IMG/VR virus record: IMGVR_UViG_3300035701_004971
Coordinates: 1 to 23,272 of that record
DNA length: 23,272 nucleotides
Direction: 5' to 3' (one strand)
DNA from: a virus
In this document: positions 3,487-20,269 of the stretch, piece after piece
Position numbering within the stretch: the stretch's first letter is position 1
How the letters are laid out: each line of letters begins with the position of its first letter
The notes under the pieces: model-generated
What the model was told of the DNA's origin: nothing
What the model saw: only the letters and a program-made list of their open reading frames with translations
Databases searched by the model: none
Position numbers and translations under genes: made by a program

Positions 3487-4695
3487 TCACGCGAGCGAGT
3501 ACGCATCCGGATTGGTCCCGGTGATGATCGGAAGATTGGTTTGCGCCGCGAGAGCGCTCACCAACCCGAGAGAAGCGCGGATCACTTGAAGCGGCTTGGC
3601 GACGATGTCTCCCGCCGGGCTCAAAAGCTCTGTACCGGTATATACGAGACCGGGAATGGTTCGTAACACCGCGCTCGCGTCGACGACGAGAAACGGCTTC
3701 CCTGGAGCTAACGAATTGATGTAGGTCACAATGGCGGCGCGGGCCTGAAGCGACGCGAGGTTGACATCGACTCCGGCTAAGAACGTGAGGGCGAGCTGCA
3801 CAGGCTGCAAAATGACGTTGGCAACCGTCACCTGAACGAAAATCCCAAGCGCTCGATATTTGTTGAGAGCGTCGTAGACGGCGGACGTCAAGAGCTGACT
3901 TTGCAACTGATAGCGTGGCGGCACCGTGCTGTAGTCCGCAAACTGCTCTGTGTACGCGTCGGCGACCGACAGCAATGAAAACCGCGCCGGGCGCCCAAGC
4001 GAATCGATCACGTCGAACGCGCTCGCTTTTCGCACCCCTGGAACACCCAAAGCCGCCGCCTCAACGGCGTCTTTGGTGCCGCGTCGTGCGGCGGCAAAGA
4101 AACGTCGCGCCCTATCGCGAAGCGCCTCGTCCTTTTCAGAGTCGTCGCCACCGGCAGAGGCGAGAGGGTTCGTGACCACGAGATCGCTCGCGGCACTCGG
4201 AATCGTGCTCACGACGCTGTTGATCGAACCGATGATGACGTTTTGTGTGGCACCAGCGAGCACGCTGCGGGCTCCGACAATCAACGGACCGACGGTGCCG
4301 ACCAAGAAAATAGAGTCTTCGATGGTTACAAATTGCACGCCTTGCGCCGTCTGCACGATCGTTCCGGTCGGAATCGTGAACGTGGTCGGGCTCGCCACCG
4401 TGGTCGAGAACGACACGGACACGAACGACGCCGCCGCCGGTTTGCGGGTCATGCCGTATCGATCGAACACGAGACGATCGAGAGCCGTACCCGTAGCGGA
4501 ATCGAGATAGAGAGCGGCCGACAAATCGGTGAGTTGGCCCACGACTTCGTCAGCCATGGCGGCGGCGGCAGCCACAAGAATGTTGGCGTCCATGCCGTCT
4601 CGCTCGACTGCTTCACGAGAGATGCGCGCGTTGCGCACGAGCACTTCATCGCGCCCGAGTCGAAACAAGTCATTGAACGACGGAAAGTCCGGCAT
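3487..4695 (-). CDS. Baseplate wedge protein, gpJ-like (T4 gp6 family)
   Basis: A 402-residue protein with the standard Baseplate_J arrangement. The N-terminal helix region has LYLDSATGTALDRLVFDRYGMTRKPA. The beta domain includes IPTGTIVQTAQGVQFVTIEDS. The hallmark GGDDSEKDEALRDRARRFF and GTKDAVEAAALGVPGV follow at about residues 180-225. This family forms the wedge ring around the central hub of contractile tails and triggers sheath contraction. The gene follows the gp25/gpW-like gene, as in P2 (V-W-J order). A GGAG ribosome site lies 5 nt upstream of ATG 4695. Length is slightly above that of P2 gpJ. Confidence 0.92.
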   Translation of the reverse strand: MPDFPSFNDLFRLGRDEVLVRNARISREAVERDGMDANILVAAAAAMADEVVGQLTDLSAALYLDSATGTALDRLVFDRYGMTRKPAAASFVSVSFSTTVASPTTFTIPTGTIVQTAQGVQFVTIEDSIFLVGTVGPLIVGARSVLAGATQNVIIGSINSVVSTIPSAASDLVVTNPLASAGGDDSEKDEALRDRARRFFAAARRGTKDAVEAAALGVPGVRKASAFDVIDSLGRPARFSLLSVADAYTEQFADYSTVPPRYQLQSQLLTSAVYDALNKYRALGIFVQVTVANVILQPVQLALTFLAGVDVNLASLQARAAIVTYINSLAPGKPFLVVDASAVLRTIPGLVYTGTELLSPAGDIVAKPLQVIRASLGLVSALAAQTNLPIITGTNPDAYSLA

Positions 4696-12322: not shown

Positions 12323-12820
12323 TTACAGAATGCTGATGTCCGACGCCGAGAAGTCGAGCCCGACCGTGCCGTAGTCGGCGCGGCTGCCGAACGAAATCGG
12401 CACTTCGCCGAAAAACGCGTCGGAGATCATCACGCGAGGCCGGTCCCCGTTGGGGAAGTTGAGCGTCGCTTTGATGTTGATCTGAGTGCCCGGGGTGCGC
12501 CGCTTGGCACGGTCGATGATCGATTGGATCGTGCTGAACACGTCGCTGTTCTCGAAATGCAGCTCGACGCGACCGCGAACCCCGTTGAAGATTTCGTCGT
12601 AGCGGTTCGTCTTCTCGCCGAGGTAGCCCTCTTCCTTCAATTCGAGCTTGGCTGCCACCTCGAACGAGCGCACGTCGGTGACGGTGTCCTGCACATCACC
12701 GTCGACCACGAGTAGCACTTCAACCTCTTGCCGTCTGTTACCTCCGGCTATCGCCGGCGGCCAGGTCGTTTCTTGTTCCGCCTGGCTCCTCGCGTCGCCG
12801 CGAGGTGCGGACCATATCAT
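12323..12820 (-). CDS. Tail tube protein (start uncertain)
   Basis: The C-terminal 130 residues are a clear tail tube protein: VDGDVQDTVTDVRSFEVAAKLELKEEGYLGEKTNRYDEIFNGVRG, then RTPGTQINIKATLNFPNGDRPRVMISDAFFGEVPI. It polymerises into the inner tube under the sheath. The first beta strand seems to begin at about NRRQEVEVLLVVDG, but there is no ATG just before it. I take ATG 12820, which lies 6 nt after the HNH stop and could be reached by re-initiation; this adds a doubtful N-terminus read through three hairpins. GTG 12823 is adjacent. GTG 12718, with AAGAGG 5 nt upstream, gives 131 residues but would cut into the first strand. The family assignment is firm and the start is not. Confidence 0.85.
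   Translation of the reverse strand: MIWSAPRGDARSQAEQETTWPPAIAGGNRRQEVEVLLVVDGDVQDTVTDVRSFEVAAKLELKEEGYLGEKTNRYDEIFNGVRGRVELHFENSDVFSTIQSIIDRAKRRTPGTQINIKATLNFPNGDRPRVMISDAFFGEVPISFGSRADYGTVGLDFSASDISIL
12744..12805 (-). other. Three consecutive hairpins ahead of the tail tube coding core
   Basis: On the minus strand: CCTCGCG-GCGA-CGCGAGG (12805-12788, a 7-bp stem with a GNRA loop), then GCCAGG/CCTGGC (12786-12781 with 12765-12760), then CCGGC-GATA-GCCGG (12757-12744). The last is followed at once by GGAGGT. They occupy the region between the HNH stop and the recognisable tail tube sequence and look more like untranslated structured leader than coding sequence. Confidence 0.7.
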
Positions 12821-12826
12821 CACCCA

Positions 12827-13609
12827 CTAGGGGTGCTCGGCGTGTGGCCTCTGAGGGTTCCGATCGATTTCGATCGGCCTTCCCTGCTGATTGCCCGCAC
12901 CGAACGGATTGTCACTCTTTTCGAGTACCGTCGGATTCTCGGGTGTTCCAGCAAATAGCCGAGTGTGAACGGCGCGGTTGCCCGCGTCGGGGGCCGCTTG
13001 TGTCAACCCTTGATTCTTTGATCTGCCATCTTCAATGCTCCTGAGTGGTTTGCCCCACTCTTCTAGGGTTCTATCTCTCTTCGAGCTATTGCAGCGTTTG
13101 CACGCCGGAACAACATTCAGAACTTCGTGCTTCCCACCACGGGTCAACGGAAAAATATGATCTTGAGTCAATCGACCACCACACCCACAATAGGCACAGC
13201 GCCACCCATATTGCTCAAGAATGGTTTCCCAATCTGAGAGACTCACAGCATCGATAGTGTTGAACGTGCGCGCTCTCCACGACTCGTATCGCACTTTCCC
13301 GATTTCCGGGTAGCGTCTTCGGTATCGAGCTGCCGTGATCCGCATTACGTCCCGATGCTTCTCTTGCCATCTTTTGATCGCATTCTTCAGCTCGGGTTGC
13401 TGATGCTCACACGGGCGACATAACGGACGGAGGTATTCATGATTGCCAACGGTACGCACGCGAAACGCGTCTGCCGGTTTTGTTTGATGGCACGCTTCAC
13501 ACTCGGCCGGGAGCCCAGGCAAGCGCCTGCTTGTTCGCCCTTTACGCGCCCAATGCGCTTTCAACGAAGCGCTTCGCTTGGTGTTTGATTCTTGGGTTTG
13601 AGCAAACAT
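12827..13609 (-). CDS. HNH endonuclease, free-standing homing-type
   Basis: A 260-residue protein from ATG 13609. An N-terminal Cys-x2-Cys pair at about residues 37/40 and a second at 64/67 form a likely zinc knuckle. A basic helical region (KRWQEKHRDVMRITAARYRRRYPEIG) is followed by the HNH domain: C138-x2-C141, D150-H151, N165 and C170-x2-C173 (RLTQDHIFPLTRGG ... VVPACKRCNSSKRDR). It probably nicks or cuts DNA as a selfish homing nuclease lodged between sheath and tube genes. The longer start at GTG 13657 is rejected because it would be translated through a terminator stem. GAGGGCGGC precedes ATG 13609. Residues from about 200 on are not part of a usual HNH domain and may derive from another small gene. 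Confidence 0.85.
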   Translation of the reverse strand: MFAQTQESNTKRSASLKAHWARKGRTSRRLPGLPAECEACHQTKPADAFRVRTVGNHEYLRPLCRPCEHQQPELKNAIKRWQEKHRDVMRITAARYRRRYPEIGKVRYESWRARTFNTIDAVSLSDWETILEQYGWRCAYCGCGGRLTQDHIFPLTRGGKHEVLNVVPACKRCNSSKRDRTLEEWGKPLRSIEDGRSKNQGLTQAAPDAGNRAVHTRLFAGTPENPTVLEKSDNPFGAGNQQGRPIEIDRNPQRPHAEHP

Positions 13610-13620
13610 GCCGCCCTCAA

Positions 13621-13662
13621 AACAAAAAGGCGCGTGAAGTGGCCGAAGCCTCTTCACGCGCC
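13621..13662 (-). terminator. Strong intrinsic terminator after the tail sheath gene
   Basis: On the minus strand an 11-bp perfect stem GGCGCGTGAAG/CTTCACGCGCC (13662-13652 with 13639-13629), an A-A mismatch, then GGC-TTCG-GCC, closed by a C(UUCG)G-type loop. TTTTTGTTTT follows at once. This is a classical Rho-independent terminator acting on transcripts from the sheath gene. The plus-strand direction has no T tract. Confidence 0.95.
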
Positions 13663-17965: not shown

Positions 17966-18304
17966 TTAGAACTTCTCCAGCTCCACGCCCGCGTCGATTG
18001 CGCGCTTGATCCCGTCGAGACCGTAGCTCGACACCTCGACGACGTCGCCTACGTGCCAGGTCACGATCTGTCCGTGCAACGAGAACGACTTTTGCGTCTT
18101 GACCCGATACCGGCTCGCCGGTTTCTCGGCCACAGGCGCCGCCGCCGGAGCGGCCGGGGCAACCGGGGCAGCTTCGGGAGCGGCCGGAGCAACTTCTGGA
18201 GCGGCCGGAGCCGCCGCCTTCACGCCCGGATCCGTGGGCTTCGAGTTTTCGCTCGACATCGGTATCGGCTTGATGCTGAGTTGCGGATTCACTTTCCTGG
18301 CCAT
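17966..18304 (-). CDS. Unrecognised small virion-region protein with Ala/Pro linker
   Basis: A 112-residue protein. The N-terminal 25 residues are polar and basic. Residues of about 28-60 form a low-complexity Ala/Pro/Val linker (AAAPAAPEVAPAAPEAAPVAPAAP). The C-terminal 50 residues (RYRVKTQKSFSLHGQIVTWHVGDVVEVSSYGLDGIKRAIDAGVELEKF) form a compact beta-rich domain with a final helix. I do not recognise the family. The ATG has a strong AGGAGG 5 nt upstream, but GCAT and ATGC flank it and could form a small hairpin holding the ribosome site in the loop. It is the first gene after the structured RNA, which makes it a candidate partner or a minor capsid protein. Confidence 0.8.
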   Translation of the reverse strand: MARKVNPQLSIKPIPMSSENSKPTDPGVKAAAPAAPEVAPAAPEAAPVAPAAPAAAPVAEKPASRYRVKTQKSFSLHGQIVTWHVGDVVEVSSYGLDGIKRAIDAGVELEKF

Positions 18305-18324
18305 GGCATCCTCCTATGCGATTA

Positions 18325-18865
18325 AAAGGCAGCGGAGTGAGACACAAATTAGATGGGCACCGATCATTATCCCGACCGTTGGGAAGTTGCCCGTCAATCT
18401 CGTGTCCCACTCCAGGCGATCGGTCCGAAGACCGACAACACAAGGCCCCGAGTCATCCGTGTATCCCCGGCACAGCCGGACACATCAGACTGGCTGCCAA
18501 AACTCTGCGCGGTTCCGTGGCGTAAGCCAGGGTTTGCGCAAATACCACGCCACTCAAACCCGAAGGTCTTTCGGCAACAAGGTTCCCGAACGTCGTCAAC
18601 TCTTGACCGAAGAGTGTCAGAACAAGGGAACGCACGAGCCGAAACAAAGAGTGGCGAAACCCCGCTCGTTGGCGTAACCGTCCGAAGACAGTAGCGAGCG
18701 GTTGAGCCGCCGATTCAACACGCCAGTGCGAATCGAAAGAGATCCCCGAAGGTATCTCGCAGCTCGAAATGCTCCCACAAGGAGAGCAACTTGAAAACCC
18801 CTGATCCATTCGCCCCTCGCACCCCCGCCGCCCGAGGGCGACGGGGGGCGAAAGAGGATTGATCA
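18325..18865 (-). ncRNA. Large structured RNA candidate between capsid gene and next gene
   Basis: About 540 nt without a convincing gene directly after the capsid stop codon. Minus-strand helices include TGATC/GATCA plus TTCGCCCC/GGGGCGAA plus CCGTCGCC/GGCGGCGG (18865-18802), GCTCTC/GGGAGC (18787-18771), GAGAT-CC-TTCG-GG-ATCTC (18758-18739), and CCGCTCG/CGAGCGG (18701-18662) enclosing ACTGTC-TTCG-GACGGT. Further helices are CGCCACTC/GAGTGGCG (18656-18649 with 18555-18548), CCGGC-TGT-GCCGG inside GTGT/ACAC (18483-18459), TCGGTC-TTCG-GACCGA (18435-18420) and a 12-bp helix GGAGTGGGACAC/GTGTCTCACTCC (18413-18402 with 18345-18334). CTTCGG occurs five times. Size and phage setting recall ROOL and GOLLD RNAs, but no family can be assigned here. 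Ends are approximate. It could be a processed 3' part of the capsid mRNA. Confidence 0.75.
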
Positions 18866-20269
18866 CTACTCTCCGTGCTCGACGATCAGAGCGCGCTTGA
18901 TCCTGGCGGCGTCGCCCGTCACGCTGTCGGTTCGGATGGGCCAGTCACCGATGAACTTCCACGCGGTACTGACCATGTCCTGCAACCGGTTGAGCGGCGA
19001 ACGGATGATGAGCTGGATCCGATCGCTGTAAATCTCGATGCCGTTGTTCGTCACCTTGGGCTCGCCCACGGCACCCGTGATCCCCGCCTCGGTGATGAGG
19101 CCGGAAAGATCCTGGTAGTATTCCATGAGTAGACCTTGCGCGACGAACAGCGGACGATGAATCTTCACGCCGCTCGTGGTGCCGTCGTTGTAAAGCTCGC
19201 CGGCGAACGGATCGTCCTGCGAGTACGACGCCGTGAGACCGCCTTCGACGGTGTCCGGGCCGGGGCACTCGGAGTTGCGGAAAAACACGTTTCCGAGCAG
19301 CTCACCGATGGCGAATTGCCGGTACATGAAAAAATCCGGCAACGAGGTCAGCAGCCGAGCGAACTGATCGTCGGCGAAAATCTGAGCCTGGCTGATCGGA
19401 TCGATGTGACAGTGGAAGCGACCGTCGGCTTGCTCCGGCACGTTCTGCGACCAGAGCCGCGCCACTGCCGATCGGATGTCCGCCAGGGTGAACTTGTCAC
19501 CGGAGCCGACATCGTCGACCTTGAGGCCGCCGCCGACACGCACCAGAACGGTGCGGTCGTTTGCGACCACATAGGCGCGAGCGGCCACTGCCGTCATCGC
19601 GGATTCCAGAGTCAAGGTGCCGGGGCCCGCCTCGTCGCCGGCGGTGTCGGCCGAGAAGCCGATCACGTTGAACGCCGCGTCAGCGCCGTTGTCGAACACC
19701 CGGATCGCCAACTTGTTGTTCGGCGACACGGTGTCGAAACGCACCGCACTGCCGAGCGGAAGATCCGGCCGGCGGGCGCGGGTGAAGCCGTTCAGCCGCT
19801 TGACCCGAAGGGTCGTGCCGCTCTGCGGGCCGCCGTCCGCGACGGTCGAGCCGGAGAGAGCCGCGTTGTACATCTTGTTGCGCGAGATGCGGTTGAGCGT
19901 CTGCGCGGCGCCGAGGCCGAGTTGCTGCGCGTTGCGGAGAAACAGCGAAGCGATCGCGGTGATGCTCGACGGCATGTGCGTGTCGATCGCGTCCGCGTAT
20001 TGCTGCAACTGAGCCGTCCACTGCTCATACTGGAACTGACTCGGGGTCGGATCGGTGCCGGGCACGAGCGCCTTCTGCTTCGTCTTCAGAAGACCGGTGC
20101 CGGTGAACACCATCGTGTCGCCGACGTTGTTGGGCCACAGTTGCGGCATGGCCTCACCACGGAACAGGTTCCGTGGATAGAGTGCGTCGTGAAAGGCGCG
20201 CTCCAGAATGTTTTCTTGGGTAAGCGCCCGGATGTCGGGAGCCTGAAGGATGGTACTGAAATCTGGCAT
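18866..20269 (-). CDS. Major capsid protein
   Basis: A 467-residue protein (MPDFSTILQAPDIRALTQENILERAFHDALYPRNLFRGEAMPQ) directly after a scaffold gene, with the composition of an HK97-fold capsid protein. There is a helical N-arm, a long spine region (QLQQYADAIDTHMPSSITAIASLFLRNAQQLGLGAAQTLNRISRNKMYNAAL), a likely inserted beta domain at about 155-270 and a C-terminal P-domain-like part (SDRIQLIIRSPLNRLQDMVSTAWKFIGDWPIRTD). It forms the icosahedral shell. An AGGAG ribosome site lies 7 nt before the ATG, and a plausible own promoter lies about 50-75 nt upstream. Confidence 0.88.
   Translation of the reverse strand: MPDFSTILQAPDIRALTQENILERAFHDALYPRNLFRGEAMPQLWPNNVGDTMVFTGTGLLKTKQKALVPGTDPTPSQFQYEQWTAQLQQYADAIDTHMPSSITAIASLFLRNAQQLGLGAAQTLNRISRNKMYNAALSGSTVADGGPQSGTTLRVKRLNGFTRARRPDLPLGSAVRFDTVSPNNKLAIRVFDNGADAAFNVIGFSADTAGDEAGPGTLTLESAMTAVAARAYVVANDRTVLVRVGGGLKVDDVGSGDKFTLADIRSAVARLWSQNVPEQADGRFHCHIDPISQAQIFADDQFARLLTSLPDFFMYRQFAIGELLGNVFFRNSECPGPDTVEGGLTASYSQDDPFAGELYNDGTTSGVKIHRPLFVAQGLLMEYYQDLSGLITEAGITGAVGEPKVTNNGIEIYSDRIQLIIRSPLNRLQDMVSTAWKFIGDWPIRTDSVTGDAARIKRALIVEHGE

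Follow-up and report, generated by a model that had tools for sequence, protein, structure and literature searches.

A new family of large multi-domain phage RNAs inherited with a major capsid gene

The 561-nt gap behind the major capsid gene of a phage recorded in IMG/VR encodes a conserved structured RNA, with conserved helices and a pseudoknot, a strict linkage to the capsid gene and no protein-coding content. The stretch of DNA analysed (23,272 nt, here called the window) carries a structural operon on the minus strand; the gap, at 18305-18865, separates the end of the capsid ORF (18866) from the start of the following one (18304). What is new here is the RNA family, which has no Rfam relative, and not a proven mechanism. 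No earlier description was found in the literature searched, with preprints and most subscription papers lying outside that search. Our leading reading, to which we assign a probability of about 0.4, is that these are large multi-domain phage RNAs, inherited with the capsid gene in a single lineage of tailed, uncultured phages, and that they most likely shape the 3′ end of the capsid message in cis. The features, listed from the capsid gene onwards, are:

18866-20269, minus strand: major capsid protein gene (phrog_1357 major head protein, E 2e-13), adjoining the RNA on its 5′ side
18324-18865, minus strand: structured RNA, from just past the capsid stop codon to a U-run (folding energy z -5.7; family-wide covariation)
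18802-18865, minus strand: 5′ hairpin of high stability, immediately adjoining the capsid stop codon and lacking a U-tract (from the fold)
18704-18765, minus strand: three-way-junction-like domain with a UUCG hairpin, similar in many relatives (local folds)
18663-18700, minus strand: hairpin with a 7-8 nt 3′ bulge (UACGCCAA), found in 16 of 43 loci versus 10% of shuffles (moderate support)
18549-18655, minus strand: domain closed by GCCACUC/GAGUGGC and carrying a CGGUC-loop hairpin at 18597-18616 (from the fold)
18496-18552, minus strand: core hairpin, with a covarying outer stem, the invariant internal loop GC-AAACCC / YGGAACC-GC and a covarying inner stem
18493-18498, minus strand: closing helix, 5′ strand GGCAGC, pairing with 18328-18333
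18420-18435, minus strand: C(UUCG)G hairpin in the 3′ domain (from the fold)
18334-18413, minus strand: long terminal stem (GGAGUGGGACACGAG / CUCACUCC side) with the pseudoknot as its cap (from the fold; same layout in relatives)
18361-18384, minus strand: H-type pseudoknot in the terminal stem, S1 UCCC/GGGA and S2 CGGUC/GAUCG
18324-18333, minus strand: closing helix, 3′ strand GCUGCC, followed directly by UUUU (family helix test and sequence)
17966-18304, minus strand: next gene (112 aa), with its own AGGAGG ribosome site before the ATG and homologues in the same place in relatives

Results

Folding of the gap and its UUCG loops

The gap has a minimum free energy of -254 kcal/mol (z -5.7), with none of 100 shuffles as low, and across the family the mean z is -4.3 for the RNA versus -1.4 for the capsid coding sequence. 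Since the opposite strand of the gap folds likewise well (z -7.2), folding energy alone does not fix the strand, and the comparison of G-U with A-C pairs as a strand test is not decisive (6 vs 6 in the core, 6 vs 3 in the pseudoknot); we assigned the RNA to the minus strand because of the direction of the operon and the C(UUCG)G loops. Between the window and a near-identical phage contig (L001) there are 105 mismatches in 8.4 kb and none in the 561-nt gap, where about seven would be expected. The length of the region across the family has a median of 489 nt (range 331-692). A protein-coding region was considered and rejected: between loci, frames match over short lengths, and the matches turn up simultaneously in several frames as well as antisense, and therefore reflect similarity of the DNA. 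No conserved protein reading frame, which the initial annotation had weighed against its own proposal of a large structured RNA directly 3′ of the capsid gene, runs across the loci, and the proposal itself is supported, with covariation throughout the family and no Rfam match.

The transcribed strand carries five copies of the motif CTTCGG (18425, 18560, 18607, 18682 and 18746). Dinucleotide shuffles of the gap average 0.48 copies and none of 2000 reach five, so that the excess pointed out initially is real, although the chance expectation then given, 0.13, was too low. Family-wide the density is 2.3 per 500 nt (39 loci), whereas shuffles have 0.32 and the coding sequence of the capsid gene has 0.14. 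The fold of the gap contains no fewer than three true C(UUCG)G hairpins, and the copy at 18607 folds with a CGGUC loop instead.

Two covarying modules

Of all modules, the AAACCC/GGAACC hairpin and the pseudoknot are the best conserved; neither appears in the initial annotation. Distant capsid relatives have gaps that align to that of the window at only ~45-50% identity; they share GCAAACCC-stem-loop-YGGAACCGC, with flanking stems that vary in sequence and stay paired. Alignment A2, of 31 sequences, has 86% of its cells paired compared to 65% in shuffles, and the covariation of the core is 0.491 versus 0.125 when shuffled and at most 0.144 when the partner strand is slid, with changes on both sides in 11 of 15 pairs. 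The window, in which the loop is present together with its covarying stems, scores 55.2 bits (E 7e-11) against the covariance model R1, being itself one of the 31 sequences from which R1 was built.

Reading of the 3′ parts of 26 loci gave the pseudoknot pattern CCC-nA-CGNNN-GGG-n(2-7)-NNNCG-G, which the window contains at 18361-18384. Because a permissive scan finds a pseudoknot in 45% of shuffles, stricter tests were applied. A pseudoknot with three features outside the search itself is present in 32 of 46 loci, versus 0.76% of dinucleotide shuffles and none of 46 coding controls. Since these features had been noticed in the same data, in a second test candidates were chosen regardless of the inner pairs of S2, and 63 of 91 turned out to be fully complementary (null mean 13.8, maximum 25). 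In alignment A3, S2 is 95% paired with a covariation of 0.781 versus 0.178 in shuffles, a figure biased upwards because the rows of A3 were picked by the first pseudoknot search. Covariation among homologues, on which the initial annotation had made the RNA depend, is present in both the core and the pseudoknot.

The pseudoknot also occurs without a recognisable core in seven further loci, one of them less clear. In L064 and L065 a variant of the pseudoknot is kept and the core is, by eye, seemingly lost, a natural deletion that is useful for dissecting function.

Further modules and the 3′ end

Folds limited to local pairing give, in many loci, the same order of modules: UUCG hairpins, three-way junction, 3′-bulge hairpin around GCCAA, CGGUC-loop hairpin, core and 3′ domain. 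We consider the three-way junction, the bulge hairpin, the CGGUC hairpin and the closing helix as candidate conserved modules with moderate support, the apparent recurrence of the three-way-junction domain being read from local folds of 48 loci. In 27 of 43 loci, against 21% of shuffles, CGGUC is found no more than 125 nt away from the core on its 5′ side. Between four close pairs of relatives, 17, 6, 5 and 4 base pairs have changed on both sides and none are broken, in folds predicted from these same pairs.

The (U)CGGUC loop (18597-18616 in the window, minus strand) is conserved in many relatives without a visible covarying partner, and no covariation of it with either the core or the pseudoknot was seen by eye; it may represent a tertiary contact.

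The closing helix joins the stretch immediately 3′ of the core to the one that immediately precedes the U-run, and so encloses the 3′ domain. Its mean score across loci, 17.2, slightly exceeds the highest of 300 permutations (null mean 15.7, sd 0.47). The 3′ boundary placed initially at 18325 coincides with the U-run (18324-18327) that follows this helix. A U-run is found in the tail of 24 of 30 loci, and an SD-like motif comes after the closing helix and U-run in 26 of the 30. A terminator scan of the gap revealed no standard intrinsic terminator. The U-run is short, and the GGCAGC/GCUGCC helix is followed by UUUU but encloses a whole domain. A scan for promoter-like sites inside the gap gave none above chance.

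Linkage to the capsid gene and evolution

Capsid homologues are found upstream of the RNA in every tested locus. When R1 was run on IMG/VR contigs fetched by DNA pattern alone (cut-off E <1e-6), all 30 matches, some of them second copies of contigs already in the set, had a capsid homologue upstream on their own strand, compared to none of 34 unpaired pattern matches (best E 0.0035). In most loci 100-400 nt separate the core from the capsid stop codon; L027 is among those in which the spacing is longer.

Two loci have HNH endonuclease genes (Pfam HNH) between capsid and RNA (L014, at 3906-4526, and L191, 249 aa), and the long spacing in L145 holds a 236-aa ORF that is HNH-like by eye without a Pfam match, so that the capsid-RNA junction may be a homing hotspot. 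The 2.5 kb between capsid and RNA in L191 also contains a 193-aa ORF resembling a dCTP deaminase/dUTPase and a further ORF. In L197, a relative of L192, the long stretch that separates the RNA from the capsid match holds a repeated piece of the capsid gene, which may be an artefact of assembly.

Among 84,980 prokaryote species genomes (GTDB) the core pattern had 12 matches and no convincing copy: nearly all lie inside unrelated coding frames and have no outer stem, and the best of them (L050, 27.9 bits) matches the loop part of R1 only and has no capsid neighbour. Compared with cultured phages, the DNA of the gap has no direct similarity and the core consensus yields only chance partial matches; two cultured phages with related capsids, Kromp (31% identity) and phiKX1 (26%), have a short gap or none behind the capsid gene, and no RNA.

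The core loop and the pseudoknot are kept across capsids that are only 42-76% identical. Capsid relatives were covered to the best 80 of 231. On a quick capsid tree the RNA is spread over the whole ingroup and the label 'no RNA' needs 5 changes versus 15 in shuffles; the RNA therefore looks ancestral in this capsid clade, with apparently a few losses. Of 16 RNA-lacking lineages, 11 have a hairpin with a U-tract within ~110 nt of the capsid stop codon. A terminator-like score of at least 14 is reached by 8 of these 16 versus 2 of 37 lineages with the RNA, a comparison that involves few independent clades and a score cut made post hoc.

Comparison with known RNAs

Large structured RNAs of bacteria and phages are rare and most have no assigned function. 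The Mu-gpT-DE motif, which is named for its position downstream of the Mu-like major head gene, is placed alike, 3′ of a phage major head gene, but it is much smaller and the capsid here belongs to a different family, phrog_1357. Its model, RF03012 (PMC7657543), does not match the gap at E up to 10. The same is true of the ROOL and GOLLD models at E up to 10, and Rfam 15 as a whole gave no match in the gap, HEARO and group I and II introns included, as the initial annotation had advised checking; the scan was functional, since it identified a true group I intron in another part of the window. The ROOL and GOLLD models likewise do not match L004, L005, L013 or L014 (E up to 2).

ROOL and GOLLD are large, multi-domain phage RNAs with pseudoknots, which lie near tRNA islands and form cages (PMC12286853). 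The RNA described here is similarly large and multi-domain, has a pseudoknot and resides in phage genomes, but is tied to one capsid lineage instead of tRNA islands. These comparisons give no support for kinship with ROOL and GOLLD, whose likeness in length and phage context was pointed out at first, while the other suggestion, of a new capsid-linked class, fits the fold, the capsid linkage and the lack of an Rfam relative.

Discussion

What might such an RNA do? In the reading that we favour, it would be read as part of the late structural transcript and therefore be made whenever the capsid message is made. Its pseudoknot-capped, tightly closed 3′ domain together with the U-run would provide the 3′ end of an abundant and stable capsid message, whether by termination, by processing or by protection from 3′ exonucleases, and capsid expression would in this way be kept apart from that of the low-demand connector genes behind the RNA. 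We infer co-transcription with the capsid gene, this 3′ end and a role in expression from the direction of the operon, the place behind the gene that is presumably in highest demand, the terminator-like hairpins in relatives, the closing helix abutting the U-run and the fresh SD-like motif after it. Intrinsic terminators behind phage capsid genes are familiar, T-phi of T7 being an example, and share with the RNA the place in the operon and the ending in a helix and U-run; many of the RNA-lacking relatives carry one. The RNA differs in its hundreds of nucleotides, its pseudoknot and invariant internal loop, and in that the gap of the window scored no standard terminator; this last point and the shortness of the U-run speak against the role in cis.

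An architecture of multiple domains with a pseudoknot and an invariant internal loop exceeds what a stabiliser of a message would need, which hints at a partner molecule or a role in trans. Since the fold is more elaborate than a role in cis requires, a trans-acting or protein-binding RNA is a serious rival. A separate RNA that is cut from the late transcript, builds up and serves as a folded particle or scaffold, as suspected for ROOL and GOLLD, is a real if clearly lesser possibility. The conservation of fold, loop and pseudoknot over such divergent capsids, and the complete identity of the 561 nt in two phages whose flanking genes vary, would suit it, and cage-forming phage RNAs provide a precedent (PMC12286853). 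However, with the patterns used the RNA was always found beside one gene family and nowhere else in IMG/VR or GTDB, no promoter of its own or tRNA neighbours were seen (a tRNA search of the window found none), and some relatives do without the RNA or, as L064 and L065, without the core hairpin. In a still bolder form, which we regard as rather doubtful, an ornate RNA cut from the capsid transcript would form its own particle, for example binding capsid or connector proteins via the AAACCC/GGAACC loop, or would enter the virion, so that a lineage of DNA phages would be using RNA in head building.

A feedback element, to which the capsid or another head protein would bind so as to tune expression of the capsid or the downstream head genes, appears unlikely to about the same degree. 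The strict linkage to the capsid gene and an invariant unpaired loop suited to protein binding are what such an element might be expected to display, and the L17 downstream element, with its proposed feedback role, sets a precedent for bacterial regulation from the 3′ side (PMC2864571). That element (RF01708) is likewise a structured RNA and lies in the 3′ region of a gene for a structural protein, but the gene is a bacterial ribosomal protein gene and the model has no match in the gap. We recognised no anti-SD or riboswitch-like arrangement, and several lineages have lost the RNA yet keep the capsid gene.

It is less probable again that the RNA is a structural component of the head, whether it is packaged into virions or takes part in assembling the capsid or in packaging the DNA. 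Such RNAs exist, as the phage-encoded pRNA of the phi29 head system (174 nt) serves the packaging motor, although no sequence or structural match between the two was found. The place of the RNA within the head operon and its inheritance together with the capsid gene would be in keeping with this role, but lineages without the RNA retain a homologous capsid and head operon, and there is no link to portal or terminase.

A mobile element or ribozyme, such as a degenerate intron, that came to lie behind the capsid gene by chance is strongly disfavoured: HNH genes do sit between capsid and RNA in L014 and L191, but these are exceptional and outside the RNA, the place and orientation are fixed in every locus with no other locations, and group I and II models do not match the gap. 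A decayed or chance array of GC-rich hairpins, conceivable in a GC-rich region where either strand folds well, is refuted by covariation far above shuffled and slid controls, by the complementarity test of the pseudoknot and by the compensatory changes, with no broken pairs, between close relatives.

With two strongly covarying modules, the major capsid gene as its strict genetic partner and close relatives that have naturally lost it, the RNA makes a ready comparative system. Should it prove to shape the expression of the capsid, it would be a bacterial 3′ element of unusual complexity; a function in trans or in the head would give RNA a new role in DNA phages.

The group I intron in the window (RF00028, 63.5 bits, full length) is located in the tail region at 12788-13014 on the minus strand, where it overlaps the end of an HNH/endonuclease VII-like ORF (12827-13657, minus strand).
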